Origin: Corynebacterium sp. | Lineage (GTDB): Bacteria; Actinomycetota; Actinomycetes; Mycobacteriales; Mycobacteriaceae | DNA length: 55,271 nt | Assembly: GCF_030538285.1 (NCBI RefSeq) | Contig: NZ_JAUNUG010000010.1 | Coordinates: 21,065 to 76,335 of the forward strand | Direction: 5' to 3' | Shown: piece after piece, positions 3,190 through 53,914 of the stretch | How positions within the stretch are numbered: the first letter of the stretch is position 1 | Layout: the number at the start of each line of letters is the position of its first letter | Position numbers and translations under genes: made by a program | Notes under the pieces: model-generated | The model's input: the letters and a program-made list of their open reading frames with translations, nothing else | What the model was told of the DNA's origin: nothing | Database searches by the model: none

Positions 3190-4215
3190 ATGACCTCACC
3201 CACCATCCTCCTGCTCGGGGAATCCGAGGAACTCGCGGCTGCTTTTCGACGTCTCGGTGCCCACGTCCACATCGCCCCCGCGGAGGTGGCGGGGGATGGG
3301 GAGGCGGTGCGGGGGATCGTCGATAAGCAGGGCGTTGACCATGTGGTGCCATTGACGGCCCATGTCGACGTCGCCGCACTGCAGGCCTTGGAGGAGGCGG
3401 GTATATCGGTGACTCCTTCGGCGCAGGGTTGCCGGTTGACGGTGGAGCGGGATTCGCTGCGCACGGTCGCCACCGAGGAGCTGGGCCTGCCGACCACTGC
3501 CTATCGTTTCGCGGACACGCGGGAGGAGTTCGCGGAGGCGGTGGCGGAGATGGGGTTTCCGTGCATCGTGAAGCCGGAGACTTTCGGCTCCGGGCACCGG
3601 GTCCTGCGCAGCCCGGAGGACGCACAGTGGCATGACCGGCGCGTGATGGTGGAGCGTTTCATCGATTTCGACCACGAGCTGACCCTGCTGGCCGTGCGCT
3701 CGATCGACCCGGGCACCGGGGAGCTGGCCACCTGGTTCTGTGCGCCTGTCGGGCATACCCACTCCGGTGGGGAGCTGGCGGAGGCGTGGCAGCCGATGGA
3801 GGTTAACCAGGTGGCACTGGAGAATGCGCGATCCCTGGCGGCGCGCATCACCAATGCTCTCGGTGGGCAGGGACTGTTCGCGGTGGAGATGTTCGTTGCG
3901 GGGGAGGATGTCTACTTCTCCGCGGTTACCCCCCGCCCCCATGATTCCGGTGCGGTGACCTTGTGTACACAGCGCTTTTCCCAGTGGGACCTGCACGCCC
4001 GCGCGATTCTGGGCCTGCCGATTGACACCACCCTGGTGTCCCCGGGCGCCTGCACCGTCATCCGAGAGGATCTGGATCTGGCGCGGGCCTTATCCGTCCC
4101 GGAGTCGGATGTCCGCCACTACACGGATTTCCCGCCCCTGGCCCTGGCCACCGCGGATACCGTTGATCAGGCGCGTGACCGGGCCGTTCAGGTGGCGGCC
4201 AGCACCATCGGCTGA
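3190..4215 (+). CDS. purT: PurT-like ATP-grasp protein (formate-dependent GAR transformylase family, divergent)
   Basis: 341 residues; PurT is usually about 390. Order: N-terminal Rossmann-like pre-ATP-grasp domain (about 1-95), ATP-grasp core with IVKPETFGSGH (126-136), the VEMFVAGEDVYFS strand (232-244) and the PRPHDSG loop (249-254), then a short C-terminal part with LALATADTV. These match PurT, which makes formyl-GAR from GAR, formate and ATP in purine synthesis. However, motifs that bind GAR in E. coli PurT look lost: GSGELGKE reads GESEELAA (10-17), the EIEAIAT stretch reads LTAHVDV, and GKPE...RRLG reads SVPE...HYTD. Synteny (a purT gene lies beyond fprA/pta-ackA in C. glutamicum) supports orthology, but the enzyme may have changed substrate. 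Convergent with the next gene; the ends overlap by 28 bp. Confidence 0.7.
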   Translation: MTSPTILLLGESEELAAAFRRLGAHVHIAPAEVAGDGEAVRGIVDKQGVDHVVPLTAHVDVAALQALEEAGISVTPSAQGCRLTVERDSLRTVATEELGLPTTAYRFADTREEFAEAVAEMGFPCIVKPETFGSGHRVLRSPEDAQWHDRRVMVERFIDFDHELTLLAVRSIDPGTGELATWFCAPVGHTHSGGELAEAWQPMEVNQVALENARSLAARITNALGGQGLFAVEMFVAGEDVYFSAVTPRPHDSGAVTLCTQRFSQWDLHARAILGLPIDTTLVSPGACTVIREDLDLARALSVPESDVRHYTDFPPLALATADTVDQARDRAVQVAASTIG

Positions 4216-4649
4216 CGCTGAATGCCACCCAGCTCGAAGGGCTCGCCCTCGGCCCGGAAGCCGTGGCGGGTGTAGAAATCGATCAGCGGGGCCTGCGCGT
4301 CGAGGACGATGTCCCGGTCGGGGAAGGTTTCCTTGGCCATGTTCACGGCGGCCTCCATGAGCTCAGTGGAGATGCCTGTCCCGCGGCCGGCGGGGGAGAG
4401 GCAGATGCGCCCCAGCTTGGCTTTGCCGTCCTCATCGATCACGCGCGCTGCACCGAGAAACGGCATGGGGCGTTCGGAGAGGTCATAGGCCAACAGGTGG
4501 CGGGAGGAGCCGTCGAGGTCTACGTCCTCGATATCGGTATGCGCCCATCCCTGCTCGGTGACGAAGACCTCGGCGCGGAGCTTGAGCAACGCGTGGATCT
4601 CGGAGGCGGAGAGGTCGAAGAAGCGGGACACGATGAAGTAGGTGTTCAC
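4188..4649 (-). CDS. GNAT family N-acetyltransferase, ElaA-like (copy 1)
   Basis: 153 residues from a GTG start at 4649 (an in-frame GTG at 4658 is the alternative; there is no early ATG). It shows the ElaA-like pattern: LLKLRAEVFVTEQ near the N-terminus, the acetyl-CoA loop LSPAGRGTGIS (about 84-94) and LDAQAPLIDFYTRHGF (about 116-131) near the end. It probably transfers an acetyl group from acetyl-CoA to a small molecule or amine; the substrate is unknown. It is the last gene of an fprA-GNAT-GNAT operon and is clearly paralogous to the GNAT gene just upstream. No terminator is seen after it. Confidence 0.8.
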   Translation of the reverse strand: MNTYFIVSRFFDLSASEIHALLKLRAEVFVTEQGWAHTDIEDVDLDGSSRHLLAYDLSERPMPFLGAARVIDEDGKAKLGRICLSPAGRGTGISTELMEAAVNMAKETFPDRDIVLDAQAPLIDFYTRHGFRAEGEPFELGGIQRQPMVLAAT

Positions 4650-4671
4650 ACCCCACACCGTATCCGTGAAA

Positions 4672-5100
4672 CTAGCTGCGTGCGCGGCGCATAGGCTGGT
4701 GGGGGACGCCGGCGTCGTCGAAAAGCGAGCCGAAGGCGTGGAAACCGTAACGCTCGTAGTAGGGGACGAGGGGGGCTTGGGCGTCGAGAAGCATTTCGCG
4801 CCCGGCGCCGAGTTCCAGCGCTTTAGCCATGATCTCGCCCGCCACCCCGGTGCCGCGCGCGGCCGGGACCAGGCAGAAACGGCCGAACTGCCAGGCATTG
4901 CCGACCGGGAATAACCGGGCCGTGCCGAGCAGCTGATCCCCGGACCAGGCGCAGATGTGCACAGTGTCGGGTAGGGCGTCGGTGTCGTCGATCTCGGCGT
5001 AGGTGCAGGCCTGCTCGTGGACGAAGACGTCGACGCGGAGCTTGTACAGCGCATGTACCTGCAGTGGACTCAGCTCGGTGAGCGGCCCGGCAGTGAGCAC
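4672..5100 (-). CDS. GNAT family N-acetyltransferase, ElaA-like (copy 2)
   Basis: 142 residues, GTG start at 5100, one base after the fprA stop, so probably translationally coupled to it. Motifs run parallel to the neighbouring copy: LYKLRVDVFVHEQ, LVPAARGTGVAGEI (acetyl-CoA loop) and LDAQAPLVPYYERYGF. The fold and cofactor are well supported; the substrate is not known. The tandem pair most likely arose by duplication, and the copies have diverged well beyond recent identity. Confidence 0.8.
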   Translation of the reverse strand: MLTAGPLTELSPLQVHALYKLRVDVFVHEQACTYAEIDDTDALPDTVHICAWSGDQLLGTARLFPVGNAWQFGRFCLVPAARGTGVAGEIMAKALELGAGREMLLDAQAPLVPYYERYGFHAFGSLFDDAGVPHQPMRRARS

Positions 5101-5101
5101 G

Positions 5102-6463: not shown

Positions 6464-6928
6464 GATGATGGGACATCCTTTGTGCTCGGGGCAGACTTTC
6501 CTGTCCATAGTACTGACCTCTTTCTACGTCGCCGCATTCCCTCACGGGGGTAACGCAGGGGTGTGCCCCAGGGCACTGTTTCGCGGTGGATTCGCGGAAA
6601 TTTGCAGGATTGTCACGCGGGTTGGGGAGGTGACCCACGCCTCGTGCCGCGGCGAGCGGGCACAATTCCAACCCTCCTGTGGGCTCGCGTGATGGCGGGG
6701 TGTTTATGCGGGTTTTCCAGGTCTTTGTTGTGCTTATCGACGTCCGCGTGGCCCCTTCCTTCCCTCTCGCCTTCTTGTGGATTGTCCGGTTATGTCGTGT
6801 TAAGTCTGAAAATTCCTCGCGGTACCAGTGTGGCGGAGGCGACATCCGTTATAGAATGGCGACCGATCCCACACGAGCGGCGATCTGTGTTGCCCCGGAC
6901 ACCCCGCTCAGCGACAGAAAGGTTACGC
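6464..6928. promoter_or_regulatory. 465-bp divergent regulatory region between fprA and pta-ackA
   Basis: No gene is supported here. On the plus strand TATAGAAT at 6850-6857 is a good -10 candidate for pta, without a clear -35. On the minus strand TACTAT near 6508 could serve fprA. G/C runs resembling RamA half sites (ACGGGGGT near 6544, AGGGGTGTGCCCC near 6557) are of interest because RamA, RamB and GlxR control pta-ackA in C. glutamicum, but these matches are weak. One copy of the iterated GRCGTCGATAAGC motif lies at 6732-6744. Confidence 0.4.
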
Positions 6929-8302
6929 ATGTCTGACCCTCGTTCAGCACTGCTCAGTGTCGTCAACCGCAACTTTGACGGTGTCGACGTTGACGGCCTC
7001 GCCGCTTCCCTCGGCCTGAGTGTCCGTCGACTCGACGACCACGAGCCCAAGGTCGGCTCCATCGTCACCGCCGGCATCCTCGACGACGGCCCCGCCCTCG
7101 TCGTCGGTACCGGCAACCTGCAGTTCGACGCCGAGATCGCCGCCGCCCTCGGACTGCCCATCATCCTGCTGACCGATGCCAAGGGCGCCCACGTCCAGCT
7201 GGCGGAACGCCAGATCAAGGCCGTCGACGCCGTCCTCGCGGCAGCTGTCACCGAGGACGGGCTGCGCGACGTCGTCAAGCTGCAGGAAGCCCTGAAGATC
7301 TCCGTCTCCCCGGTCATGTCCCCGCCCGTCTTCGAGTCCTGGCTGCTGGAGCGCGCCAAGGAAGCCAAGGCCCACATCGTCCTCCCCGAGGGCGAAGACG
7401 ACCGCATCCTCCTCGCCGCCGGCCAGCTCCTGGACCGCGACATCGTCGAGCTGACCATCCTGGGCAAGCCCGACGAGATCAAGAACCGCTCCGGCGAGCT
7501 CGGCGTCGACCTGGGCAAGGCCCACATCGTCGACCACCTCACCTCCCCGCTGCTCGACGAATTCGCCGCCGACTTCGCCGAACTGCGCAAGTCCAAGGGC
7601 GTGAGCATCGACGAGGCCCGCGAGACGATGAAAGACATCTCCTACTTCGGCACCATGATGGTCCACAAGGGCCTAGCCGACGGCATGGTCTCCGGCGCCG
7701 CCAACACCACCGCGCACACCATCAAGCCCTCCTTCCAGATCATCAAGACCACCCCGGACGCCTCCGTGGTCTCCTCGATCTTCCTCATGGTCATGCGCGG
7801 CCGCCTCTGGGCCTTCGGTGACTGTGCCGTCAACCCGAACCCCACCGCCGAGCAGCTCGGCGAGATCGCCGTCGTCTCCGCCAAGACCGCCTCCCAGTTC
7901 GGCATCGACCCCCGCGTCGCCATGCTGTCCTACTCCACCGGATCCTCCGGCTCCGGCCCGGACGTGGAGCGCGCCGTGGAGGCCCTCCACAACGCTAAGC
8001 GCATCGACCCCTCCCTCAAGGTGGACGGCCCGCTGCAGTTTGACGCGGCGGTGGACCCGGGCGTCGCAAAGAAGAAGATGCCCGACTCCACCGTCGCCGG
8101 CCAGGCCAACGTCTTCGTCTTCCCCGACCTGGAAGCCGGCAACATCGGCTACAAGACCGCCCAGCGCACCGGCTCCGCCCTCGCCGTCGGACCCATCCTG
8201 CAGGGCCTGAACAAGCCCGTCAACGACCTCTCCCGTGGCGCCACCGTCCCGGACATCGTCAACACCGTCGCAATCACCGCCATCCAGGCCGGAGGAAAAT
8301 AA
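6929..8302 (+). CDS. pta: Phosphate acetyltransferase
   Basis: 457 residues from ATG 6929, with AGAAAGG six bases upstream; the frame is open far upstream but carries no family sequence. It interconverts acetyl-CoA plus phosphate and acetyl phosphate plus CoA. The C-terminal two thirds is the PTA_PTB catalytic domain (SGAANTTAHTIKPS, LSYSTGSSGSG, LQFDAAVDP, ANVFVFPDLEAGNIGYK). Ahead of it is a reduced DRTGG-like domain. The protein is much shorter than the roughly 700-residue enterobacterial Pta and is the usual corynebacterial size. The TAA is followed directly by the ackA ATG, so the two genes form an operon for acetate activation and overflow. Confidence 0.95.
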   Translation: MSDPRSALLSVVNRNFDGVDVDGLAASLGLSVRRLDDHEPKVGSIVTAGILDDGPALVVGTGNLQFDAEIAAALGLPIILLTDAKGAHVQLAERQIKAVDAVLAAAVTEDGLRDVVKLQEALKISVSPVMSPPVFESWLLERAKEAKAHIVLPEGEDDRILLAAGQLLDRDIVELTILGKPDEIKNRSGELGVDLGKAHIVDHLTSPLLDEFAADFAELRKSKGVSIDEARETMKDISYFGTMMVHKGLADGMVSGAANTTAHTIKPSFQIIKTTPDASVVSSIFLMVMRGRLWAFGDCAVNPNPTAEQLGEIAVVSAKTASQFGIDPRVAMLSYSTGSSGSGPDVERAVEALHNAKRIDPSLKVDGPLQFDAAVDPGVAKKKMPDSTVAGQANVFVFPDLEAGNIGYKTAQRTGSALAVGPILQGLNKPVNDLSRGATVPDIVNTVAITAIQAGGK

Positions 8303-10787: not shown

Positions 10788-14193
<3,406 letters not shown>

Positions 14194-14194
<1 letters not shown>

Positions 14195-15747
14195 CACAGG
14201 TACTCCTGCAGGCGGGGGCGCACGCCGATCCACACGGCGAGGATGGCGAGCACGCTGAGCAGCAGCACGGCGGTGGAGACGAGCTGGGTGGCGGCCAGGC
14301 CGTCGTTGATGAAGGCGCGCATGGAGGAGCGGGCGTCGGCGATGAGGCGGGACAATGCCCCGTCGAGGCGGTCGTAGGAGGCGGCGGCGGTGGGTGGGGT
14401 ATCGGGCACCAGCGTGGTGGTGGTGGCCAGGCGGACTGCCTCGGGGTAGTCGCCGGAGTTCATGGAGACGACGAAACGGGCGTGGGCGCCTTCCCAGTCC
14501 TGCAGAGCGGAGCGGGCTTCGCCGATCTGGTCTCGGTTGGCTTCGGAGGCCAGCGGGTTGTGGCCTTCGGCCTGCTCGAAGTCGGTGAGGGCGAGGTTGA
14601 TGGCGTCGGCGGTTTCGGCGAAGGAGGTGGAGGTATCGGCGACGGATTGGCGGCGCACCAACGCCAGGGTTTCCAGGGTGCGGGCCTGTTGGGCCTGGAT
14701 ACGGGAGGCGGTCAGCGAGTCCCAGGGCATGGATGCCTCCTCGAAGCCGCGAGTGCCGGCCTGCCAGGTGGAGAAGTTGGAGGCGGAGACCCACAGGATG
14801 GCGATGAGCATGAGCCCGGTCGCGGTGAGGAAGCCGCGGTTGAGGCGGCGCCGGGTCATCCGCCACAGCAACCATTGGGCGATGAGCAGGAAGAACACGG
14901 CGGCGAACAGGCCGGACAGGGGCACCCACTGGGGGCGGGTGAGTTGGTGTTGCTGGTCGCGGACGTTGGAGGAGGTGGCGGCGAAGAGGGTCGCGGCGTC
15001 GGGAAGAATCTGTTCACGCATGAGCGAGGAGGCCTCCGCCATGTACGCCACGCCGACGGGGTTGCCCATGCGGTTGTTGGTGCGGGCGGTTTCCACCAGC
15101 CCGGTGTAGATGGGGATCTGTCTTTCGATGTCGGCGATGAGCTGGAGGGATTCCCGGTGGGAAAAAGGCACGCCGGCGGCGGATTCGGTGGCGGACATCA
15201 TGGCGCGGTCAATGGCGGCGTTGTAGCGGGCACGGGTGCCGGCGGATTCGACGCCAGCCTGCACGAAGCCGGTAGTGGCGATGGTGTCTGCCAACGATAA
15301 GGAGGTGTACAGGTTGTGCGCGGCGTAGCTCATCGGCTCGGTGGTGGTCAGCAGGACGTCGAGCTCCTGCTGTCGGTCCGAGGAGGACTGGGACATAGAC
15401 CAGCCGGCGGCAAAGATCGCCACCGACAGGACGACGGTGATGCCGACGAGTTTGCCGGGGGTGGTGGCCAGGAAGGCGAAGATGCGGCGGAACCACAGGT
15501 AAGGCACCGCGAAGGTGTCCATGATGCGGGCGGTGGCGCCGCGCCGGCGGTGTTCCTCATCGGAGGTGACTTCGTCGAGCCAGTGGTCGCGGGTGTCCTC
15601 GGGGACGTCGGCGCCGTCATCGTCCGGGATGCTTATCGACGCCCGCGTCGAACCGTTTCCGGGTGTGCGCAGGCGGGTGCGACGATAGTGCATGAGCGTG
15701 CCCGTCGGGCCGGAGCCACGCTCGGGGTTCTCCGTCGCGCCGGTCAT
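14194..15747 (-). CDS. glnX: Membrane protein GlnX of the GlnX-GlnH-PknG pathway
   Basis: 517 residues from ATG 15747 (MTGATENPER); the frame is open upstream but without family features. It has a cytoplasmic hydrophilic N-terminus, a first membrane helix (LVGITVVLSVAIFAAGW), a long extracytoplasmic helical part, a hairpin of membrane helices (FAAVFFLLIAQWLL and TATGLMLIAILWV), another extracytoplasmic part and a final helix (STAVLLLSVLAILAVWIG). This matches the transmembrane protein that passes the GlnH amino-acid signal to PknG. First gene of the operon, divergent from the Nudix gene with 54 bp between. An iterated motif copy at 15631-15643 encodes part of RASISIPDD. Confidence 0.85.
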
Positions 15748-15801
15748 TGCCACATGATAACCCGCTGAGTGTGTCGTGCGCCATGAGATAGGCTCGGGGC
15801 C

Positions 15802-17960: not shown

Positions 17961-19168
17961 GACAGCAGCGTGTAGGCCAGGATGACCAGCGCGGGCAGCG
18001 CGAAGTAGAAGGCTGCCATGGTGGCGGCGGCAGTGAGATACCCGCGGGTGGCCAGTCGGCCGGACAGCTCCGCCAGGCGGATGAGCCATTCCCGCAGCGG
18101 CGGAAGAATGAGCACCAGAAGAGTGCCCAACACGTTGAAGGACACGTGGACCAGGGCTGCCTGCACCGCCAGAGCACCCATCGGGCCGGGCACGGCGAGC
18201 GCCGCCAACAGTGACATGAGGGTGGTGCCCACGTTCGCGCCGAGGATGATCGCCAGGGCTTCGCGCAGTTTGATGGCCTTCGACACCGCGAAAGGCAGCA
18301 GCGAGGACACCGTCACCGAGGACGCGTTGACTGCCATCGTCGTCAGCAGGCCCGACAGCACCCCCAAGGCGTCGGAGGTGCCGGTGGAACGCTCCAGCAG
18401 GGTCCGCGTGGTGGCGGCGGTGAGGATCGCCAGCTGCGCGTTGATCACCCGCACCGCGGCGAGGATGAGCAGAGTGCCCACCAGGATCGCCACCACCGCC
18501 GCGGCACGCGGCGGAAACAGTGAGCCGAGGAAACCGGCGGTGCCGACGGCGTCGATAAGCGGGGAGAACATGTCCGACAATTCGCGGGCGGTGTCCGTCG
18601 CCCCGTCGCCCACCACCGAATCGGAGACCATGCCCACGAACGTGCGAAGCGGATGAAACACCAGCTCCAGGACGAAAGCGAGCGCCACCATGAGGGCGTT
18701 GAACCACGTGTGCAACGAGGCTGAGGTGAAGGCGCGGCAGAAACTGCGGCGGTGGCCGAGGTAGCTGAACGCCACGATCTGCGGGGTGATCGTGGTGCCC
18801 AGGTTCGCGCCGAGGATGATCGGGATCGCCACCTCCACGGAGATGCCGCCGGTGCCCACCGCGGTGATCGTCAGGGCGGTGATCGTCGTGGAGGACTGGA
18901 TCGACGCCGTGGCGATGATGCCGATGAGCAGGCCGATGAGCGGATTCGTCGCCAGGCCGAAAAGGCGGTTGACGGCGGGGGCGCCGATGTCGAAGGCACC
19001 GTCGAGAATGAGGTAGACCGCCAGGAACAGCACGAACACCGCCGCGGCCACCACCGCCCAGCGCACGAAAGCGCCCAGCGGGGATAAGGCGACGAAGTCA
19101 CGTTCCGCCGGGATCTGCTTGGGGTTGATGAAGTGTTGGGTGCCGGGGAGCGAGTGGTCCACGGTCAT
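17957..19168 (-). CDS. Na+/phosphate cotransporter (NptA/PF02690 family)
   Basis: 403 residues from ATG 19168, with AGGAG nine bases upstream. It has the internal repeat of Na/Pi cotransporters: ASIQSSTTITALTI and NASSVTVSSL in the two halves, each followed by a re-entrant stretch with GANLGTTIT and GANVGTTLMS. About eight membrane helices are visible. It likely imports inorganic phosphate with sodium. It is divergent from the MFS gene. No PhoB- or PhoR-type box was recognised upstream. Confidence 0.9.
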   Translation of the reverse strand: MTVDHSLPGTQHFINPKQIPAERDFVALSPLGAFVRWAVVAAAVFVLFLAVYLILDGAFDIGAPAVNRLFGLATNPLIGLLIGIIATASIQSSTTITALTITAVGTGGISVEVAIPIILGANLGTTITPQIVAFSYLGHRRSFCRAFTSASLHTWFNALMVALAFVLELVFHPLRTFVGMVSDSVVGDGATDTARELSDMFSPLIDAVGTAGFLGSLFPPRAAAVVAILVGTLLILAAVRVINAQLAILTAATTRTLLERSTGTSDALGVLSGLLTTMAVNASSVTVSSLLPFAVSKAIKLREALAIILGANVGTTLMSLLAALAVPGPMGALAVQAALVHVSFNVLGTLLVLILPPLREWLIRLAELSGRLATRGYLTAAATMAAFYFALPALVILAYTLLS

Positions 19169-21908: not shown

Positions 21909-22715
21909 TTAGCGGACCTCGTCGAAGGTGGCCTTGTTGTAGTCCACCACCACCGGCGCGTGGTCCGAGGCGCCCTTACCGGAACGCTCCTCCACGTCGA
22001 CGAAGGCGGAGGTGGCCAGTTTCGCCAGGGCGGGGGTGGCCAGCTGAAAATCGATGCGCATGCCCTCGCCCTTCTGGAAACGCATCCCCTTGTAATCCCA
22101 GTAGGTGAAACGTTCGGCGGCCAGGGGGCGGGTGACTTCGCTGAGCCCGGCGTCGATAAGCCTGTCGAAGGCGATCCGCTCCGGTTCGGTCACATGGGTC
22201 TTGCCGGCGAAAAAGCCGATGTCCCACACGTCCTCATCGAACGGCGCGATATTGAAATCGCCCAGGTAAACGGCCTTTTCCGTGGTGTCGTGGCGGACGT
22301 GCTCGGCAAGTGCCTGGAGCCAGCGCAGCTTGTAGTCATAGTGCGGGTCGGCGATCTCGCGGCCGTTGGGCACATACAGGCTCCACACGCGCACCCCGCC
22401 ACACGTCGCACCGATGGCGCGCGCCTCGACGGCCTGCTCACTATCCGGGTTCTTGTCGAAGCCCGGCTGGCCCGGAAACTGCTTATCGACGTCCCCGAGC
22501 CCCACCCGGGACACGATCGCCACCCCATTCCACTGGCTGGTGCCAGCGTGGGCGACCTCGTAGCCGGCGGCCTCGAACACGGCGTAGGGGAACTTCTCAT
22601 CCGTGCACTTCGTCTCCTGCATCGCCAACACATCCACGTCATGGCGGTGGAGAAAATCGGTGATCCGCTCCGCGCGCGTGCGCACAGAATTGACGTTCCA
22701 GGAGACGATCCGCAT
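21909..22715 (-). CDS. xthA: Exodeoxyribonuclease III
   Basis: 268 residues from ATG 22715 (MRIVSWNVNSVRTRAERI); the frame extends upstream without family sequence. Active-site elements: WNVNS, AMQETKC (catalytic Glu), VYLGDFNIAPFDEDVW (Asp and Asn), GMRIDFQLAT and SDHAPVVVD (the terminal Asp-His pair). An AP endonuclease/3'-5' exonuclease of base excision repair. Upstream partner of cls, which starts at its stop codon. Confidence 0.92.
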   Translation of the reverse strand: MRIVSWNVNSVRTRAERITDFLHRHDVDVLAMQETKCTDEKFPYAVFEAAGYEVAHAGTSQWNGVAIVSRVGLGDVDKQFPGQPGFDKNPDSEQAVEARAIGATCGGVRVWSLYVPNGREIADPHYDYKLRWLQALAEHVRHDTTEKAVYLGDFNIAPFDEDVWDIGFFAGKTHVTEPERIAFDRLIDAGLSEVTRPLAAERFTYWDYKGMRFQKGEGMRIDFQLATPALAKLATSAFVDVEERSGKGASDHAPVVVDYNKATFDEVR

Positions 22716-37313: not shown

Positions 37314-37333
37314 GGCAACCACGTTACCGACGC

Positions 37334-40027: not shown

Positions 40028-40107
40028 GCATTGGTGGGGGAGACGAGACGTCGATAAGCGGGCAGTTCGTCGCACCCGTCTGAGCGGGAGGGACTAGGAT
40101 TATCTAC

Positions 40108-42026: not shown

Positions 42027-45000
42027 CTACCCCCGCTGCCACGGTTCGATCGGATTGCCCTGCCACACCGTGGAGGCGGGGACCTGGTCGCCGCGCATGA
42101 CGAGGGAGCCGGGGCCGACGGTGGCGGCGTCGCGAAGCATCGCAGCAGGTAGGGCCACCGAGTGGGCGGCGAGGGTGGCGCCGTCGGCGATGGTGACGGT
42201 GTCCAGGCTCATGACGCGGTCCTGGAACAGGTGCGTCTGCACGACGGTGCCGGGGCCGACGGTGGCGCCGCGGCCGACCACACACAGGTCGGTTTCGGGG
42301 AACCAGTAGGACTCGATCCACGCGCCGCGGCCGATCTTCGCACCGAGCGCACGCAGAGCGAGGTTGAGCTCCCCGGTGCCGAGCGACGGTACGAGGAACC
42401 ACGGGCCGGCGACGGCCTCGACGAAGGCGTCCTGCAGCTCGTTGAGCCACACGAACTCGCTCCACAGCGGGTGGTCGCCCGGCTTGTGCTTACCGACGCA
42501 GAACCACTTCACCACCACCGTGATCGCCATCGCCACCGCGCCCGCGGCCATGAGGACCGGGCCACCGAGCAGCCAGGCGAAGACAATGCCGTAGGTGGTG
42601 GCCAACCAGTAGAGCGTGCCGACGACACCGGCGAGCAGCATCGCAGACGTCATCGGGGCGAGCAGACGCATCGTCTCGATGAACCCACGGAAGAACTTCA
42701 CCTTCATACCCGGGTTGTAGGTCAGCGCCTCACCGCCATCCGCGTCAACCTGGACCCGGCGCATGCGCTCCGGCGGGGAACCCCACCAGTTGGTGTTCGC
42801 CTTCGCCTTCTTCGGCGTGGACGACAGCACCGCCACCAGGGAGTTCTTCGGCAGTTTGCGGCCCGGCCCGGTGATGCCGGAATTGCCGACAAACGAGCGC
42901 TTGCCCACGCGGGTTTCACCCGTGAGCATCCAGCCACCGCCGAGCTCGTAACCGCCGACGAGGGTGTCATCGGCGAGGAAGGCACCCTCGCGGATATCGG
43001 TGAGCGTAGGCACCATCACTGCGGTGGACACCTCCACGTTCTTGCCGATCTTCGCCCCCAGACTGCGCAGCCACAACGGAGTGAGCTGCCCGGCGTAGAG
43101 GGGGAAGAGATAGGTGCGGGCATCATCCATGAGCCGCTCGATGGTCCACAGCTGCCAACCCCGCAGGGAACGAACCGGGTAGACACCCGGCTGCAGTCCG
43201 ATCTGCAGGATGCGCACTCCGATCCACGTCGCCACCATGTAGAAGGCGAAGGCGACGAGGCCACCCAGCGGGGCGAAAACAAGGGCCCCGAGGAGGGGGT
43301 TGCCGCCGGTGGCGTCGATAAGCATGACAACAACGAACGCTGCCAGGGCGAGCGCGGCGAGCCCCTGCAAGCTCAACGCCACGGACGTCAGTCCGTATAT
43401 GGGTACCCAGCGCGAACGGCGCGGCGGGTGCTCATCCGGGAAGCGGTGCTTCGAGCGGCCCACTTTCGACGCCGGCGAGCCGGACCAGCGCGATCCCGGC
43501 TTGATGGTGCGGTCCCCGGTGACGGTGGAACCGGCCTCCACGTGGGCGTCCTCGCCGACAATCGTGCCTGGAAGAAGAGTGGAACGGGATCCGACGCGGG
43601 CCTCGGAACGCACCTCGATCGCACCGACACGGACGATGTCACCGTCGACCCAGTAGCCGGACATGTCGACCTCCGGCTCAATCGCGCAATGATCACCCAG
43701 GGTGAGCAGGCCCGTAATCGGCGGCAGGGAATGCAGATCAACGCCGCGGCCGACCTTCACGCCCAGTGCGCGGGCGTAGTAATTCACCCACGTCGCCCCC
43801 GAAATGGACTGCGAACCGGAAGCATCCGCCCACCGTTCGGCGGCCCAGATGCGCAAGTGTGTCGAGCCACCGCGCGGGTACTCGCCAGGCGTGATCCCGG
43901 CCGTGAGCAGGCGGGCGCCGAGGCCACCGAGCGGCAAGCGCCCGATGGGGGAACCGAAGACGATGAGCAGCAAAGCAACCAGCCACCAGGAGGTGTGCTG
44001 GGCCCACTCGAGCCCTGCGAGATGGGCAAGGTTGCCACCCAGAAGAATCCAACCCAGCCAGGTCGTGGCCTGCAACGTCATCATCGGGATCTGGATGAGG
44101 AACTGGGCCAGGCGCGTGCCCGGACCGACCGGGGTGACGGTGCGGGGCTCGGTGGAGGTGGTGCCATCAAGCGACACACCGGACTTCGCCGCAATCGACT
44201 CGACCGCCACCGCCAGGGAACCCAGACGGGGATGATCGTAGAGATCACGCACCGCGATCGTGGGAACCTGCTCGCGGATACGGCCCACGAGGGTCGCGGC
44301 GGCCAGGGAGGTGCCACCGAGCGAGAAGAAATCAGCGTCCGCGTCCTGCACCGAGGTGCCCAGGACATCCACCCACAGCTCGGCGAGCCAGGTCTCGGTG
44401 GGGGAGAGATTCGTGGCCTCCACGCCGACGCCCGGCAGCGGCCACGGCAGGGCAGCCTTGTCCACCTTGCCGGAGGTGCGGATGGGCAGCTCCTCCATGA
44501 CGCAGATGCGCGGGACGAGGGCCGCTGGCATGAGCTCCGCGAGTCGTTCGTGAGCGGCATCATGGTCGAACCCCATCGTGGGGTCATCGAGGGACACGTA
44601 GCCGACCAGAACCGACTGATTAGCGCCCGTCTTCTGCACCGCCACGGCCGAGTTGTACACGTTCGGCAGGGCGGCGACATTCGCCTCCACCTCACCGAGC
44701 TCGATGCGGCGGCCGCCGATTTTCACCTGATCATCCACACGCCCCACGAAGTAGAGGCCGTCCTCCTCCAGGCGGACATGGTCGCCCGAGCGGTAGGCGC
44801 GGGCCCAACCCACCGAGGGCATGGGGGCGTACTTCTCGGCGTCCTTGATCGGGTCAAGATAGCGGGCCAGGCCGACACCGCCGATGACCAGCTCACCGAC
44901 CTCGCCGACCGCCACGGGGTTCTCGGCCTCGTCGACGACGATGAGGTCCCAGCCCGCCAGAGGCAGGCCGATACCCACCGGCTGCCCGGGGTGCAGCTGG

Positions 45001-46437: not shown

Positions 46438-46728
46438 CTATTCGGTGGGTAGGCCCTTCTCTACCCAGGCCAGCGTGCCACCCTCAACATTGATGGCCTC
46501 AATGTCGTGGTTCTCCTTGAGGAAGTCACACGCCTTAACGGAGCGACCGCCCGAACGGCAGATCAGGTAAATATCGCGCTCGGTGTCCAGCTCAGAGACC
46601 CGGTCAGCGAACTCAGACAGGGGGATGAGGGTGGCACCAGCGGCGTGCACCTCGGCGAACTCGTCGGCCTCGCGGACATCGATAAGCTGCGCATCGGAAG
46701 GAACTTGAGTCACATTGACTGATTTCAT
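46438..46728 (-). CDS. Rhodanese-like (single-domain sulfurtransferase) protein
   Basis: 96 residues. LIDVREADEFAEVHAAGATLIPLSEF at the N-terminus and the active-site loop ICRSGGRS with Cys, followed by NVEGGTLAWVEKGLP. Single-domain rhodaneses (GlpE/PspE-like) carry persulfide sulfur in the cytoplasm; the physiological partner is not shown. Divergent from the small membrane protein gene with 24 bp between. Confidence 0.88.
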   Translation of the reverse strand: MKSVNVTQVPSDAQLIDVREADEFAEVHAAGATLIPLSEFADRVSELDTERDIYLICRSGGRSVKACDFLKENHDIEAINVEGGTLAWVEKGLPTE

Positions 46729-47397: not shown

Positions 47398-47439
47398 GGC
47401 GGGGAAGGTCGCTGGGGCCTGTCGGCGGCGTCGATAAGC

Positions 47440-48110: not shown

Positions 48111-49385
48111 ATGAGTGGAAAGAAGCTGTGGTGGTCGGTGGCTGCCGGTGTCACTGCGTTGGCGGTGTCCGGGGTGGCTGGTTTTGCTGTGGTCGCGGAC
48201 CGTTACTACGGCGATCTCACCCGCGAGCCTGGCTATGTTGCGCATTCCCCTACCCCGGTGCTGGAACCCGCCTCCGCCGAGGCGGTGGACAATGTCGCGC
48301 TGGGTGCCCGGCTGGCGGAACTCGCCGAGAACCCGGACCTGGGCACCGTGCACGGGCGCGTCACCGACACCGTCACCGGGGAGACGGTGTGGGAGCAGGC
48401 CTCGGCGCAGGCGCTGCAGCCGGCGTCGGCCACGAAGATTCTCACCGGCGCGGCCGCGATCCTGGAGCTCGGGGCCGATGATGTGCTGGTCACGGAGGTT
48501 GTCGAGGGGCCGGTCCCCGGCGCCGTGGTCATCCGCGCATCGGGCGATGTGTGGTTGACTGCTAAGCAGATGGACGATGTGGCCGCGCAGATCGGGTCGG
48601 CGGAGCAGGTAATCATCGACACTTCCGTGTGGGATGGGGATCGTTTCATGCCCGGTTGGGATCCCGTCGATGTGGATGCCGGTTATATCGCCCCGTTGGA
48701 GCCTGCCATGCTCTACGGCGCGCGCATCGACGACACCGCAGGCGATGTACCGCGCTCGCACACCCCGGCTCTCGACGTCGCGCAGGCGTTGGCTTCCCGC
48801 GTGGGTGCGTCGACCGTGGGTTTGGGGCCCGCGCCTGAGGGGGCCGCGGTGCTGGCGTCGGTGGAATCGCCGCTGCTCACCGAACGGCTCGAGGCCATGA
48901 TGATGGATTCCGACAACGTCATGGCCGAGGCCATCGGCCATGAGCTCGCCGTTCACCGCGGGCAGCCGGGTTCCGCGGCCGCCGCCACCCAGGCCACCCT
49001 GGATGTCCTCGCCGCGCACGGCTTCGACATCACCGGAGTCGCTCTCGCCGACAATTCCGGCCTGTCCGTACACAACCTCATCCCCCCGCGGCTTCTCGAC
49101 GATGTGCTAATCGACGCCGCCACCTCCCCCCAACTCCGCCCCCTCCTGGCGACCCTGCCGGTGGCGGGCGGTTCCGGAACACTCGCGGAGCGCTACGGGG
49201 ACCTGTCCGGTCGGGGCTGGGTCCGCGCCAAGACCGGCACGTTGACGGGTACCTCTGCCCTGGCCGGGGTGGTTACCGCCGAGTCCGGGCGCGTCTACTC
49301 CTTCGCGCTTTTGGTCAACGGGGCGGAGATCCTCGGGGCACGTGCGGCTCTCGACGAGTTCACCTCCGCCATCCGGGAGTCCTAA
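48111..49385 (+). CDS. dacB: D-alanyl-D-alanine carboxypeptidase/endopeptidase (PBP4, DacB type)
   Basis: 424 residues from ATG 48111. An N-terminal membrane anchor or signal ([22 protein letters not shown]) places it outside the membrane. Penicillin-binding motifs of the S13 family: SATK (Ser106, Lys109), SDN in [15 protein letters not shown], and KTGTL near the C-terminus. It trims or cleaves peptidoglycan stem peptides. It precedes tilS-hpt-ftsH in the usual order, though a toxin-antitoxin remnant has inserted between dacB and tilS. Confidence 0.9.
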
Positions 49386-49924: not shown

Positions 49925-49985
49925 ACAGGCGAGAGGCCGGTCCTTTCGAATGTTGCCGCGACCGGCACCGATTAGCATCTTCCCC

Positions 49986-50867
49986 ATGGAACCTTTCTGG
50001 CCCCGGCGCAGCCCGCACTTCCTGGCGTGCCGGCGTGCGGTGCGCCCATTCCTCACGCCGGAAGAAGTGGTCATCGGGCTGTCGGGCGGGGCGGATTCGC
50101 TCGCACTGGTGGCCGCCGCGCGGGCGGAGGGGCAGGAGGTGCATGCCGTCGTCGTGGACCACCAGTTGCAGGCCGGTTCCGAGCGCGTCGCCGAACATGC
50201 CGCGCAGCAGGCCCGCCAGCTCGGCGCCCGCGCCTCGATCACCCGCATCACCGTCGCAGCAGGCAACCTGGAGGCGAACGCCCGCACCGCCCGCTACCGA
50301 GCTCTCCGTGCCTTTAACCAGCCGGTGTGGGTGGCGCATACCCGCGATGACCAGGCGGAAACCCTCCTGCTCCAGGCCCTGCGCGGCAACCCGGGCGGGA
50401 TGGCAACGCAACAGGATGGGATCACCCGGCCTTTCCTCAGCATCCGCCGCGCGGACACCGAAGCAGCCTGCGCCGAACTCCAGCTGAGCCCCTGGCACGA
50501 CCCGCACAACGATGACACGGACTTCCAGCGCGTCGCCCTGCGCAAGACCCTCCAGCAGATCCACGGCGACCCGGTCGAACCACTCGCGCAGACCGCCGAG
50601 CGCATCGCCGCGGATAACGCCCTGCTCACCGAGCTGGCTGGTCCGCCCACGGATGACTGCGCGGAACTGGCCGCCCAACCCGCGCCCCTGCGGCGCCGCC
50701 GGATCGCGGCCTGGTTGATTGAGCACAAGGTAAACCCGACGCGGGCGTCGATAAGCATGATTGAGGACATGTGCACCACCTGGCACGGGCAGGGAGCCGT
50801 GCGCGTGGGCGCAGGGTTGGAAGTCAGGCGCGTAGGTGGCAGACTGGCGTTATCCGTGGAGGCCTAG
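49986..50867 (+). CDS. tilS: tRNA(Ile)-lysidine synthase
   Basis: 293 residues from ATG 49986. PP-loop [15 protein letters not shown] (about 31-45), then [33 protein letters not shown] and [19 protein letters not shown], all TilS hallmarks. It makes lysidine at the wobble base of the AUA-reading tRNA-Ile. It is on the short side, lacking the full C-terminal domain of E. coli TilS. An iterated motif copy at 50744-50756 writes Ile with ATA (RASISM), the very codon this enzyme serves. Followed by hpt after 10 bases. Confidence 0.92.
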
Positions 50868-50877: not shown

Positions 50878-51471
50878 ATGACCGTGCACGACAACAAGGA
50901 TCACAACGTACCGGCCAGCTGTTACGGCGAGGACGTCGAGGCGGTGCTCATCAGTCAGGAGCAGCTCGCCACCCGCATCCAGGAACTCGCCGACAAGGTC
51001 TCAGCAACCTACCGCGACGCCGATGAAGAACTGATCCTCGTGTGCGTGCTCAAGGGCGCGGTGTTCTTCCTCACCGACTTCACCCGCGCACTCGACATCC
51101 CCTCCCAGATGGAATTCATGGCCGTATCCTCCTACGGCAACTCCACCACCAGCTCGGGAGTGGTCCGTATCCTCAAGGACCTCGACCGGGAGATCGAGGG
51201 CCGCGACGTGCTCATCGTCGAGGACATCATCGATTCCGGTCTCACCCTCTCTTGGCTGATGCGTAACCTGCGCGCCCGCAACCCGCGCTCCCTCGAGGTG
51301 ATCACCCTGCTGCGCAAGCCCGAGGTGGTCAAGGCCGATATTGAGCTTTTCGACGTCGGGTTCGACATCCCCAACGAATTCGTCATCGGTTACGGCCTCG
51401 ACTACGCCGAGCGCTACCGTGACCTGCCTTTCGTGGGCACCCTGCACCCGCGCGTCTACTCCGGGGAGTAA
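50878..51471 (+). CDS. hpt: Hypoxanthine phosphoribosyltransferase
   Basis: 197 residues from ATG 50878, with AGGAAAGG upstream. Purine PRTase features: [34 protein letters not shown] (flexible loop), the PRPP-binding [16 protein letters not shown], and [25 protein letters not shown]. It salvages hypoxanthine and guanine to IMP and GMP. Part of tilS-hpt-ftsH. Confidence 0.94.
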
Positions 51472-51565
51472 GCAGGGAACGAAACCACACGCCTGGGCGT
51501 TGTGGTGGGAAGAACGTAGAACGAAGACGAAAGGCACTGGTCGCGCTGCCCTGCGGCCTCAATAC

Positions 51566-53914
51566 ATGAGCAACAAGAGAATCCTCCAGATCGGCCTGAT
51601 CTCTGCGATCGCGCTGGTGACCATCTTCGTGTTCAGCCTGCTTACCGACGACACGCGCGGGTTCCAGCGGGTGGACACCTCCGTGGCCATGGCGCAGCTG
51701 AATGACGCCAACGCCAAGGAAGTGCAGATCGACGACCGCGAGCAGCGGATCCGCATCGAACTGCGCGAGCCGATCACCTATGAGGAACGCGAGGGTGTTG
51801 AGGAGATCATCGCCCAGTACCCCGCGCGCACCGCCCCGCAGGTGTTCGACGCCGTCCAGGCCGCTGAGCCGGACGAGTACAACACCACGGTGACGCAGGA
51901 CAGCTTCCTCATGGGCATGCTCGGCTTCCTGCTGCCGATGCTGCTGCTGTTCGGCCTGCTCTTCTTCTTCCTCACCCGCATGCAGGGCGGCGGCGGCATG
52001 TTCGGCTTCGGCGGCTCCAAGCACAAGGAGCTGACCAAGGACATGCCGACGAACACCTTCGCGGATGTCGCCGGCGCGGATGAGGCCGTCAGTGAGCTGG
52101 AGGAGATCAAGGACTTCCTGCAGGATCCCACCCGTTACCACGCCCTCGGCGCGAAAATCCCGCGTGGAGTGCTGCTCTACGGCCCGCCCGGCACCGGTAA
52201 GACCCTGCTGGCGCGCGCCGTGGCCGGGGAGGCCGGGGTGCCGTTCTACTCGATCTCCGGTTCCGATTTCGTGGAGATGTTCGTCGGTGTCGGTGCCTCC
52301 CGTGTGCGTGACCTGTTCAAGCAGGCCAAGGAGAACAGCCCCTGCATCATCTTCGTCGATGAGATTGACGCCGTCGGCCGCCAGCGCGGCTCCGGCATGG
52401 GCGGCGGACACGATGAGCGTGAGCAGACCCTCAACCAGCTGCTCGTGGAGATGGACGGCTTCGGCGACCGCGAGGGCGTCATCCTCATGGCGGCCACCAA
52501 CCGCCCCGACATCCTCGATCCGGCGCTGCTGCGACCGGGGCGTTTCGACCGCCAGATCCCGGTGACCGCCCCCGACCTGGCCGGGCGCGAGAAGATCCTG
52601 GCAGTCCACGCGAAGGGCAAGCCGCTGGGCCCGGACGCCGACATCAAGGCCCTGGCCAAGCGCACCGCGGGTATGTCGGGCGCGGACCTGGCCAACGTGC
52701 TCAATGAAGCCGCCCTGCTCACCGCCCGCATCGGCGGCAACGTCATCACCGCTGATGCCCTCGAGGAGGCCACCGACCGTGTCATCGGCGGCCCCCGCCG
52801 CGAGGGCAAGGTCATCTCCGAGAAGGAGAAGAAGGTCACCGCCTACCACGAAGGCGGGCACACGCTGGCCGCGTGGGCGCTCAAGGACATCGAGCGCGTG
52901 TACAAGGTCACCATCCTCGCCCGCGGCCGCACCGGCGGCCACGCCATGACGGCGCAGGAAGATGACAAGGGCATGTACAACCGGGATGAACTCTTCGCCC
53001 GCCTCGTCTTCGCCATGGGTGGGCGCGCCGCCGAGGAACTCGTCTTCGGCGAGCAGACCACCGGCGCCTCCGCCGACATCGAGCAGGCCACCAAGATCGC
53101 CCGCGCGATGATCACCGAGTACGGCATGTCACCCACCCTCGGCATGGTCAAATACGGCGAGGAGCAGGGTGATCCCTTCTCCGGCCGCCCCGGCGGCGGC
53201 ACGCTGACGGTCTCCCCGGCGGTGGCCGCCAAGATCGACGACGAGGTACACCTGCTTCTCGACGCCGCCCACCGCCAGGCCTACGACATCCTCCACCGCT
53301 ACCGCGACCACCTGGACACCCTCGCCGAGAAGCTTCTGGAGAAGGAGACGCTGCGTCGCCCGGACCTGGAGCTCATCTTCGACGACATCGAGCCGATGGA
53401 CGCCCCCGACATCTTCCCGCACGCCGAGAACCGCTTCCCGCAGCAGGAAGGCCGCGAGCCGGTGAAGACCCCCACCGAGCTGGCCATCGAACGCGGCGAG
53501 GAACCGCCTAAGCGTTTCTCCCTGCTCGAAGCCACCCAGCAGGCCCGCGCCAAGCGCCAGGCCGAAAAGGAAGCCCAGGCCGAGGCCGTACCCGCCCCGG
53601 TAGAGGATAGCGAAGGCAAGCACCGCGCCCCCGAGCCGGTCGGCGCCCGCTACGGCGGCACCCCGCCCCCGGCCGATTGGACCGCGCCGGGCTGGCCGCC
53701 GAAGGACAACCCCTACGCCACCGGCAACGAGCACCCGGGCATGAAGAACTACGGCCCGGAAAAGGCGCCTGAGGCCCCGGAGACGGAAGTCATCGGCTTC
53801 CGCCTGCCGGCGCATGAGCAGCCGGAGAATGTGGAGGGGGGCGTCGATAAGCAGCCGGAACAGCGACCGGAACCCGCCGCCGACGACGTCGCCGCACCAG
53901 AAAACAAGGAGTAG
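51566..53914 (+). CDS. ftsH: ATP-dependent zinc metalloprotease FtsH
   Basis: 782 residues from ATG 51566; the upstream open frame lacks family sequence. First membrane helix at 7-26, an extracytoplasmic domain, a second helix ([21 protein letters not shown]), then the AAA+ domain with [23 protein letters not shown] and [21 protein letters not shown], and the protease domain with the zinc site AYHEGGH. A Pro/Glu-rich tail of about 170 residues follows; it is probably disordered. It degrades membrane and regulatory proteins. One iterated motif copy lies in the tail (53840-53852; GVDKQ). The gap of 94 bp from hpt may hold a promoter, but I see no clear one. Confidence 0.95.

Follow-up and report, generated by a model that had tools for sequence, protein, structure and literature searches.

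A strand-asymmetric, highly iterated DNA element with species dialects in Corynebacterium, a candidate uptake sequence

Introduction

Why should a stretch of 55,271 nt from Corynebacterium sp. (hereafter the window) carry one 13-bp word, GRCGTCGATAAGC, over and over, within genes and between them? The original prediction, made from the letters of the window, placed the word in the class of highly iterated motifs that includes uptake sequences, HIP1, Chi and KOPS, and knew of no such motif in Corynebacterium; we likewise found no description of one among the papers listed by searches of an open-access library. The motif is carried by most of a genus to which skin commensals, industrial strains and pathogens belong.

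Results

A recount of the window returned 14 copies of GRCGTCGATAAGC and a fifteenth copy of its core, CGTCGATAAGC, exactly where they had been reported. The 15 cores span positions 3318 to 53852, with the claimed mixture of 10 on the plus and 5 on the minus strand. Each of 100 dinucleotide shuffles contained 0 copies of GRCGTCGATAAGC and only 0.02 cores were expected, in line with the earlier estimate of less than one copy by chance. By a simple gene caller of our own, 4 of the cores were intergenic and the other 11 lay within genes, where they occupied five different frames; this agrees with the earlier account of copies in unrelated genes, different frames and intergenic DNA. The variant pattern CRTCGNNAMGC occurs 39 times in the window (Table 1), and the preceding 30-mer has a GC skew above 0.1 in 35 of these copies.

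Table 1. Copies of the element in the window, with the GC skew of the 30 nt upstream
Site	Coordinates	Strand	GC skew	Context or remark
core CGTCGATAAGC	3318..3328	+	0.75	ATP-grasp gene 3190-4215; fifteenth copy, AT before core, not GR
core	6732..6742	-	0.52	within PTA_PTB gene 6563-8302
core	15631..15641	-	0.05	within ORF 14194-15912 (no Pfam match)
core	18550..18560	+	0.27	within Na/Pi cotransporter gene 17957-19168
core	22151..22161	+	0.22	within Exo_endo_phos gene 21909-22775
core	22481..22491	-	0.39	Exo_endo_phos gene 21909-22775; opposite to 22151..22161 copy
core	23488..23498	+	0.20	within Rv0428c-like acetyltransferase gene 23316-24308
core	25047..25057	-	0.62	intergenic
core	27218..27228	-	0.43	intergenic
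core	37172..37182	+	0.52	within M20 peptidase gene 35979-37340
core	40049..40059	+	0.53	intergenic
core	43313..43323	+	0.36	within ORF 42027-45914
core	47429..47439	+	0.42	intergenic
core	50746..50756	+	0.18	within TilS-domain gene 49845-50867
core	53842..53852	+	0.60	within FtsH-type (Peptidase_M41/AAA) gene 51341-53914
variant CATCGTGAAGC	3564..3574	+	0.62	
variant CGTCGAAAAGC	4716..4726	+	0.39	
variant CGTCGAGAAGC	4782..4792	+	0.62	
variant CGTCGTCAAGC	7270..7280	+	0.18	
variant CGTCGAGAAGC	11543..11553	+	0.53	
variant CGTCGGCAAGC	20519..20529	+	0.65	
variant CGTCGAAAAGC	27484..27494	+	0.30	
variant CGTCGTAAAGC	28264..28274	+	0.73	
variant CGTCGAAAAGC	32046..32056	+	0.30	
variant CGTCGCGAAGC	42128..42138	+	0.42	
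variant CATCGATAAGC	46677..46687	+	-0.09	may be chance
variant CGTCGACACGC	54685..54695	-	0.33	
variant CGTCGAGAAGC	53254..53264	-	0.55	
variant CGTCGGTAAGC	51640..51650	-	-0.05	may be chance
variant CGTCGAAAAGC	51345..51355	-	0.25	
variant CGTCGAGAAGC	49091..49101	-	0.50	
variant CGTCGGCACGC	42614..42624	-	0.16	
variant CGTCGGTAAGC	42488..42498	-	0.56	
variant CGTCGGGAAGC	37105..37115	-	0.30	
variant CGTCGCAAAGC	31901..31911	-	0.42	
variant CGTCGGAAAGC	19438..19448	-	0.36	
variant CATCGGTACGC	10834..10844	-	-0.08	may be chance
variant CGTCGAAAAGC	3241..3251	-	0.45	
variant CGTCGAGAAGC	3002..3012	-	0.20	

The whole 2.95 Mb genome holds 574 copies of GRCGTCGATAAGC (293 forward, 281 reverse; reversed control 0) and 782 cores (389/393; control 1). 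A 389 kb sample of the same genome, consisting of the window and 20 further stretches, contained 110 cores, whereas a Markov model built from that sample predicted 1.6. With these genome-wide counts the motif is neither near its Markov expectation nor confined to the window, the two outcomes that had been named as speaking against it, and the 574 copies support its place in the highly iterated class. Selection acts on the DNA itself, a claim that was borne out by the codons used: CTT-ATC-GAC encoded 51 of the 88 Leu-Ile-Asp tripeptides (2.9 expected), TCG-ATA-AGC 13 of the 23 Ser-Ile-Ser (0.01 expected) and GTC-GAT-AAG 25 of the 36 Val-Asp-Lys (4.8 expected). A second species showed a similar codon excess at the motif tripeptides.

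The anatomy of the element was worked out in two genomes, that of the window (G000) and a relative (G009). The element is strand-asymmetric: CRTCG-NN-A[A/C]GC follows a stretch of about 30 nt in which the strand is rich in G and poor in C. Over the 30 nt upstream of the core, divided into three 10-nt bins, the GC skew was 0.27/0.43/0.40 in G000, where the other bins examined gave at most 0.13, and 0.38/0.49/0.42 in G009, where the next bin out gave 0.17. The G-rich flank was present between genes and in every frame class with at least 10 copies; 124 pooled copies called intergenic had G and C contents of 0.43 and 0.23 upstream and 0.30 and 0.30 downstream, and G in their flank followed a three-nucleotide rhythm (0.50, 0.43 and 0.36 by phase). 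The leading GR of the 13-mer is not fixed (G 64, A 21, T 18 and C 7 among the 110 bases that precede a core), and core position 7 tolerates almost any base (T 110, G 51, A 19, C 16). One-mismatch copies were few at most core positions. Within genes there was no strong preference for position, with deciles of 65 to 116 out of 898 copies. Just two cores in the 389 kb started within 80 bp of each other, as a direct repeat, and one inverted pair was seen among the first 100 matches listed (contig C12, 6134 and 6157). The 13-mer is real and vastly enriched, and is the spelling that this genome prefers for a longer, widespread element; the original prediction had captured the core and overlooked the 30-nt G-rich tract, the free middle dinucleotide and the dialects described below.

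Polarity along the chromosome was examined in two relatives, G005 and G009, the genome of the window itself being in 94 contigs. The two halves of the G009 sample carried 21+/20- and 22+/26- sites (p 0.67). Those of G005 carried 19+/34- and 28+/26- (p 0.12), counted from the matches listed and with seven further reverse sites taken as lying at the end. No replichore polarity was significant in either genome, although 34 of 53 sites in the first half of G005 stood on one strand (p 0.05).

The generic word was enriched at least 4-fold in 185 of 242 Corynebacterium genomes, and many chromosomes of the genus hold the tag in hundreds of copies. Elsewhere in the order, 246 genomes all stayed at or below 2.2-fold as judged by eye. 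The positive genomes fell into two dialects, CATCG (18) and CGTCG (167), with none between 21% and 71%; TCG was constant across the sampled dialects except in G012. Two genomes with a weak Tad ATPase score that lack the common motif carried a related element with an A-tract. The proposed comparison of positions between related species showed that sites are conserved in place: at one locus, around tadA, 12/15, 13/14 and 10/13 sites were kept at about 82% identity, compared with 1/5, 0/2 and 0/4 composition-matched control words. At this locus all 10 sites of KPL1814 (CATCG) also kept their place in ACRPO (CGTCG), 9 of them with an A to G change. Six plasmids and two phages (370 kb) held 21 copies (control 10), whereas 27 chromosome loci (514 kb) held 259 (control 25); in this comparison, in which hosts were not matched, the motif was 9-fold rarer in the plasmids and phages and lacked the G-rich flank there (flank skew 0.02 versus 0.35).

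ComEC was present in 241 of the 242 genomes and a Tad ATPase above the family cut-off in 232, while all 30 genomes tested had a ComEA-like match that fell short of the family cut-off, in 29 of them in a short frame. Since the ComEC, ComEA-like and Tad genes also occur in genomes without the common spelling, this machinery does not explain the distribution of the motif. Weak Tad ATPase scores were seen in 30 of 52 motif-lacking and 9 of 185 motif-bearing genomes, uncorrected for phylogeny. Columns discriminating the dialects numbered 15 in TadB, 12 in TadA, 6 each in TadZ and Flp, 4 in the helicase and 1 each in TadE and TadF when 5 CATCG loci (3 near-identical) were set against 21 others, with TadC compared by identity only; in this small set, uncorrected for phylogeny, no protein of the tad locus stood out as tracking the dialect.

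Discussion

We see about an even chance that the tag is the DNA uptake, or self-recognition, sequence of the genus. As would suit such a sequence, the word is vastly over-represented genome-wide (574 against a control of 0; 110 against 1.6), stands in both orientations without replichore polarity in the two relatives, varies by species around a constant core (TCG, except in G012), keeps its place in orthologous segments at the locus around tadA and is rare in foreign DNA, as sampled by six plasmids and two phages with unmatched hosts. Competence machinery is present, though non-carriers have it too. The scarcity of one-mismatch copies counts against slow decay under uptake bias alone, which should leave more of them. 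Some protein very probably reads the tag and changes its specificity between species; this reader may act in DNA uptake, and the Tad/Com machinery might be involved. A cell-surface receptor would bind tag-bearing fragments, favouring DNA of close kin, the bound DNA would pass a Tad/Flp-type pilus to ComEA/ComEC, and uptake with recombination would spread and maintain the copies.

Natural transformation has not, to our knowledge, been reported in Corynebacterium, nor did we find such a report among the open-access papers listed, and as far as we know uptake sequences come from two Gram-negative families alone, Neisseriaceae and Pasteurellaceae. With somewhat less than even confidence, we suggest that the tag represents the first such system beyond these families, an actinobacterial one that is linked to the Tad/Flp pilus, crosses the mycomembrane and is coded in dialects. 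Its signal would be a new composite, in which a split core is read as double-stranded DNA jointly with 30 nt of a G-rich strand whose spacing is roughly triplet. If uptake is the function, natural transformation would have gone unrecognised in Corynebacterium, gene flow there would meet a barrier at the species level, and laboratory strains could gain a route to better genetic work; if not, a strongly selected genome-wide signal still stands. Dialect covariation across 185 genomes would offer a handle for finding the reader protein. Micrococcus luteus possesses comEA and comEC and requires Flp pili for transformation (excerpts of PMC6370729; also PMC6667448).

The tag resembles self-DNA recognition tags of some other bacteria, with a spelling that differs by species like a dialect. 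DUS of Neisseriaceae are also short non-palindromic words in hundreds to thousands of copies, but they measure 10-12 bp around a CTG core without a long G-rich tract, their receptor ComP is known, and the bacteria that use them are Gram-negative and bear type IV pili. They often form inverted pairs at terminators, whereas such pairs are rare for the Corynebacterium tag, a scarcity that counts against likeness to the uptake sequences of Neisseria and Haemophilus. Terminators of Haemophilus carry uptake words in inverted pairs (PMC5217627, in excerpt). The eight DUS dialects of Neisseriaceae keep the CTG core constant (excerpt of PMC3630211), a parallel that implies a coevolving receptor. USS of Pasteurellaceae likewise join a core to composition-biased flanks, and in Haemophilus the flanking AT-rich sequence contributes to uptake (PMC7811141, in excerpt). 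The USS core AAGTGCGGT has AT tracts, whereas the flank here is G-rich and upstream; an A-tract downstream was seen only in a divergent group.

It is rather unlikely that the tag is a Chi-like element, oriented and read by an enzyme of double-strand-break resection, with the G-rich tract as the preferred strand for RecA loading. A search for RecC found it in 0 of 242 genomes, so that RecBCD is absent and a Chi read by RecBCD was rejected; the enzyme in Corynebacterium would perhaps be AdnAB. Like Chi, the tag is an oriented word with a G-rich side that marks self DNA, its sites are conserved in place and few in the plasmids and phages examined, the flank rhythm is suggestive of RecA triplets, and the first half of G005 leans to one strand. 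Known Chi sites, however, are skewed in orientation, whereas the halves of G009 and of G005 showed no significant difference, and they are shorter and weaker in excess than this 11-bp tag with its free central dinucleotide and about 70-fold enrichment. E. coli Chi sits in G/T-rich islands, whereas the flank here is G-rich, not GT-rich, and its rhythm may leak from uncalled genes.

Unlikely, too, is a chromosome-organising site, bound chromosome-wide by a nucleoid or segregation protein. Copies do lie through and between genes without strong preference within them (the deciles above), and conservation and the dialect switch imply a binding protein. Yet the G-rich side is fixed on each copy without orientation along the chromosome, the plasmids examined have few copies, and the switch would require an altered housekeeping protein.

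That the tag is a methylation site, or marks self DNA for restriction-modification or some other defence system, is very improbable: few copies in the plasmids and phages examined would suit this reading, but defence systems usually deplete their own site in the host or leave it unenriched, and it is not typical of their sites to keep their positions or to have a compositional flank of 30 nt. HIP1 of cyanobacteria, also highly iterated and of unsettled function, is a palindrome of 8 bp that lacks strand asymmetry; the tag is non-palindromic with an asymmetric flank.

We assign an extremely low probability to KOPS, the polar guide sequences for FtsK. The element is dense, non-palindromic and asymmetric, and shares with KOPS and SRS (read by FtsK and SpoIIIE) an oriented, dense word, but no significant polarity was seen in G009 (21+/20-, 22+/26-) or G005 (p 0.12), which refutes KOPS provided that the assemblies and assumed origins are correct and upholds the earlier argument from mixed orientation. 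In all 30 genomes scored, which comprised both dialects and two non-carriers, FtsK gamma gave a uniform 86.0 to 88.9 bits. Negligible, finally, is the chance that the word arises as a side effect of codon usage or of a protein motif: Leu-Ile-Asp is the most frequent frame (47 of 110 cores) and itself over-represented (88 against 35.5 expected), but this origin is refuted by rare codons that prevail in several unrelated frames and by intergenic copies that carry the same flank as genic ones.

Abundance and anatomy of the element

The motif is real and far above chance. Within the window the 13-mer GRCGTCGATAAGC was present in 14 exact copies, with 0 in each of 100 shuffles, and its core CGTCGATAAGC in 15 (10 plus, 5 minus), figures that reproduce by direct count those of the original prediction. 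When the count was extended, as had been proposed there, to the whole genome containing the window (G000; 94 contigs totalling 2.95 Mb, with a listed contamination of 6.7%), 574 copies were found, 293 forward and 281 reverse, with 0 of the reversed control. Its Tad ATPase had only Corynebacterium proteins as best-scoring named relatives, in line with that genus. A 389-kb sample of G000, made up of the window and 20 stretches, held 110 cores, where a Markov model of the same sample predicts 1.6. The 10-mer GGTGACGGTG/CACCGTCACC was seen 13 times in the window, where about 1 was expected. One inverted pair of 13-mers, found among the matches listed for G000 (Table), resembles the paired copies that established uptake sequences form at terminators.

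Table. Positions of individual features
Feature	Sequence	Positions	Remark
Inverted 13-mer pair	G000, contig C12	6134-6169	10 bp between the copies
Gene annotated DprA	C. atrinae plasmid pJCM19266a (L291)	43260-44171	Transformation protein

Any single change at core positions 1-6, 8, 10 or 11 was present in at most 4 copies in a one-mismatch scan of G000; position 7 was nearly free (T 110, G 51, A 19, C 16), and position 9 tolerated C (12 versus 0.8). The upstream side carried a strand-asymmetric tract, as measured by GC skew in 10-nt bins: in G000 the skew was 0.27 at -30 to -20, 0.43 at -20 to -10 and 0.40 at -10 to 0, and outside the tract it was 0.08 at -40 to -30, about zero beyond and at most 0.13 downstream. 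The same three bins in a second Corynebacterium genome, G009, gave 0.38, 0.49 and 0.42, with 0.17 at -40 to -30. The tract was also there at 149 G000 copies with other middle bases (0.21 to 0.30) and at 52 G000 copies of CGTCGNNACGC (0.19 to 0.27); the decoy CGTCGNNAAGG (13 G000 copies) showed little skew (0.05 to 0.11), and a third decoy, CGTCGNNAACC, had 3 and 4 copies only, too few to inform. In G000 and G009 alike, the tract accompanied intergenic copies and those of every frame class represented by 10 copies or more, and at 124 copies called intergenic (six sets pooled) the G and C fractions were 0.43 and 0.23 upstream and 0.30 and 0.30 downstream. From the mismatch scan and the flank skew, therefore, the element is G-rich(30)-CRTCG-NN-A[A/C]GC, here called the tag; the window contains 39 cores of this form, 35 of them with an upstream skew above 0.1.

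When every 6-mer was scanned for a G skew on one side only, the search placed tag words at the top in G000 (z 9.1), G009 (z 7.7) and a third genome, G001 (z 4.7), and gave GCGTCG in G132 (z 4.0). Since unrelated words reached z 4.4 in a Rhodococcus and Nocardia set (25 of 53 loci), the results for G001 and G132 are not strong alone, and only those for G000 and G009 are clear. Over the pooled sets, G in the 30-nt upstream tract followed a rhythm by three (0.50, 0.43 and 0.36 per phase), also at copies called intergenic; this may be a leak from uncalled genes, because the 17% noncoding fraction of that gene calling is too high.

Codon choice at the tag

With our own gene caller, the 110 G000 cores were read as Leu-Ile-Asp (47, on the other strand), Val-Asp-Lys (19) and Ser-Ile-Ser (13), with 10 in two other frames and 21 intergenic. 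In G000 the tag spelling CTT-ATC-GAC was used for 51 of 88 Leu-Ile-Asp (2.9 expected from codon use), TCG-ATA-AGC for 13 of 23 Ser-Ile-Ser (0.01 expected) and GTC-GAT-AAG for 25 of 36 Val-Asp-Lys (4.8 expected); in G009 the tag spelled 41 of 69, 6 of 21 and 25 of 44 of these tripeptides, with 3.4, 0.02 and 3.7 expected, respectively. The Leu-Ile-Asp tripeptide was itself in excess alongside the tag (88 versus 35.5 expected). Biased codon choice at the tag tripeptides therefore shows that the constraint acts on the DNA, as originally suggested, and the test rules out a protein motif or a codon artefact as the source of the motif. Among 898 genic copies from six pooled sets, 591 were antisense and 307 sense to the gene.

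Distribution and dialects

The generic word GCRTCGNNAAGC was enriched at least 4-fold over its reversed control in 185 of the 242 Corynebacterium genomes (carriers) and less than 2.5-fold in 52, and the five intermediate genomes were assigned to neither class; G099 and G226 were classed negative by this word, yet have 270 and 48 cores, and G022 was classed intermediate, yet has 280. Across 249 genomes of the order, three from the genus were strongly enriched and the other 246 were mostly at or below control, with a maximum, read by eye, of 2.2-fold in G337. Named loci surrounding tadA were also counted: the 27 from Corynebacterium (514 kb) contained 54 cores, and the 53 from Rhodococcus, Nocardia, Mycobacterium and others (1.03 Mb) contained none; in the latter the generic word was counted 8 times versus 18 for the control. 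The tadA loci of C. pygosceleis and C. meridianum had no core and that of C. otitidis had one.

Carriers fell into two dialects: genome-wide, the CATCG share of the generic word was 71 to 99% in 18 of the 185 and no more than 21% in the remaining 167, with none in between. Preferred spellings in 100-kb samples were GCATCGRCAAGC in G001, CGTCGATARGC in G002 and GCGTCGGCAAGC in G014, and several middles were used in G005. Low-count genomes were sampled at 100-132 kb each. Two genomes without the common spelling carried GGCGTCG: G018 (L143-L147, L195) had 67 copies in 120 kb, G-rich on the leading side and A-rich on the trailing side (A fraction 0.51-0.57 over offsets 10-13), and G007 (L081-L085, L193) had a weaker form with the A-tract. 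The G018 element may be a more distant dialect. A different enriched word, CGCGRCGTCAT, which has GRCGTC in common with the tag and is without a G-rich flank, was found in G012 (L091-L095), where CGCGGCGTCAT occurred 16 times against 0.29 expected in 100 kb; in G206 (L138-L142, GC 75%) GCGGAAGGCAA had 7 copies in 100 kb, with 0.01 expected, and might be a repeat family or a further iterated word. In G132 the word was a weak GCGTCG, G-rich on one side. Nothing strong appeared in the samples of G011, G029, G043, G143, G216 and G227, among which G143 had GGCGTCGAA 10 times versus 1.3 and G043 had word families of 5-6 copies.

Conservation in place and a coordinated switch of spelling

Within one 20-kb locus around tadA, retention of CRTCGNNAMGC sites in pairwise comparisons of three species (about 82% identity; the pairs have members in common) was 12/15, 13/14 and 10/13, and that of four composition-matched control words, combined, was 1/5, 0/2 and 0/4. 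Site retention was 11/13, 9/9 and 6/9 in the tuberculostearicum group and 1/3 between the tag-poor C. meridianum and C. pygosceleis. Six cross-dialect pairs (L187, L209 and L211 against L214 and L216; 78 to 79% identity) kept 10/13, 10/12, 7/12, 10/10, 7/12 and 7/10. Each of the 10 sites of KPL1814 (L209) coincided in position with a motif in ACRPO (L216), with CATCG replaced by CGTCG at 9 of the 10, and ACRPO had two additional sites absent from KPL1814; between L211 and L214, A had become G at 7 of 7 shared sites. A coordinated switch of this sort at fixed places is difficult to account for unless the tag is read by a protein whose preference has changed.

Mobile DNA

In 370 kb of DNA from six Corynebacterium plasmids and two phages, 21 motifs were counted versus 10 for the control (5.7 per 100 kb), and the chromosome loci had 259 versus 25 in 514 kb (50 per 100 kb), a comparison with unmatched hosts in which longer plasmids and phages are represented by parts. 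The six chromosome loci with GC below 61% still had 40 per 100 kb. Mean upstream skew was 0.02 in mobile copies versus 0.35 in chromosomal copies. A C. atrinae plasmid is annotated with a gene for the transformation protein DprA (Table).

A proposed signal for self-recognition

The tag fits a self-recognition signal because of its strand asymmetry without polarity, its density, its dialects, its conserved places and its rarity in the foreign DNA examined. We infer that it would mark the cell's own DNA for recognition, as an uptake sequence. Among known kinds of iterated motif the uptake sequence matches most features, and this model would explain both orientations, the dialects and the foreign-DNA rarity together. 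Corynebacteria possess an outer mycomembrane, and for this reason the likeness to Gram-negative uptake systems may be deeper. By its title, a Liberibacter paper concerns Tad pili and DNA uptake (PMC8513845). The actinobacterium Micrococcus luteus has comEA and comEC, and its transformation requires Flp pili (PMC6370729; PMC6667448). Among the open-access papers listed, judged by titles and abstract starts (subscription journals mostly, and bioRxiv, outside), we found no description of the motif or of a Corynebacterium uptake sequence, in keeping with the original prediction, which knew of no described motif of this kind in the genus; the Corynebacterium motif pairs shown in PMC5217627 are CRISPR repeats.

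The leading alternative is a Chi-like role, for which AdnAB is a possible enzyme. A KOPS reading, in which the copies would be polar guides for FtsK, was rejected. In G009 (one contig, 20 evenly spaced stretches, with the sign of the GC skew taken to place the origin close to the contig start) the core was counted 21 plus and 20 minus in the first half and 22 plus and 26 minus in the second (p 0.67). G005, with 107 sites, 100 of them among the matches listed and seven further reverse sites assumed at the end, gave 19 plus and 34 minus, then 28 plus and 26 minus (p 0.12; p 0.05 for the first half by itself). The halves thus compared showed no KOPS-kind polarity along the chromosome in G009 or G005, which bears out the earlier argument against such a role, and the FtsK gamma domain scored uniformly (86.0 to 88.9 bits in all 30 genomes scored, from both dialects and two non-carriers), which speaks against a link with FtsK. 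Chi acting through RecBCD is ruled out, RecC being found in 0 of 242 genomes.

Candidate uptake machinery and readers

For the uptake-sequence reading, machinery was sought across the genus. ComEC was present in 241 of 242 genomes, and a Tad ATPase match in 239, above the family cut-off in 232. All 30 genomes tested had a ComEA-like match, always below the family cut-off; in 29 of them the frame measured 207 to 343 aa, and G129 had only a weaker match, in a 789-aa frame. The gene order in G000 is comEA-comEC-holA, and its tad cluster adjoins a DEAD-box helicase and, as read from sequence only, lies beside cspA and topA.

The Tad ATPase score was weak or missing in 30 of 52 non-carriers versus 9 of 185 carriers. 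TadA was 46-56% identical to that of G000 in the five weak-score non-carriers examined, 64-70% in four other non-carriers and 66-67% in two carriers. Because these five genomes form a divergent group and the nine exceptions include fragmented assemblies, we read the association as probable phylogeny, and the Tad cluster is on this ground a doubtful reader. Five CATCG loci (L187, L209 and L211, near-identical; L215, L228) were compared with 21 others, four of which, non-carriers or loci with an unclear dialect, were placed there by us (L189, L190, L206, L217). Raw counts of separating columns, with kinship ignored, were 15 in TadB, 12 in TadA, 6 each in TadZ and Flp, 4 in the helicase and 1 each in the pilin-like candidates TadE and TadF, in both near the N-terminus; many columns lay at ends or gaps and some were internal. 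No tad-locus protein was singled out by this comparison as tracking the dialect. The ankyrin and LysE genes beside comEC, absent in G011, were rejected as candidates, being also present in G132 and G043, both without the common spelling.

A gene with a weak secretory-lipase match (PF03583), not called in G000, G001 or G009, adjoins the tad-linked helicase in G007, G018, G216 and G227 (L193, L195, L196, L197). A VTT-domain gene was present in the tad locus of G000, G001 and G009 only, of 12 loci.
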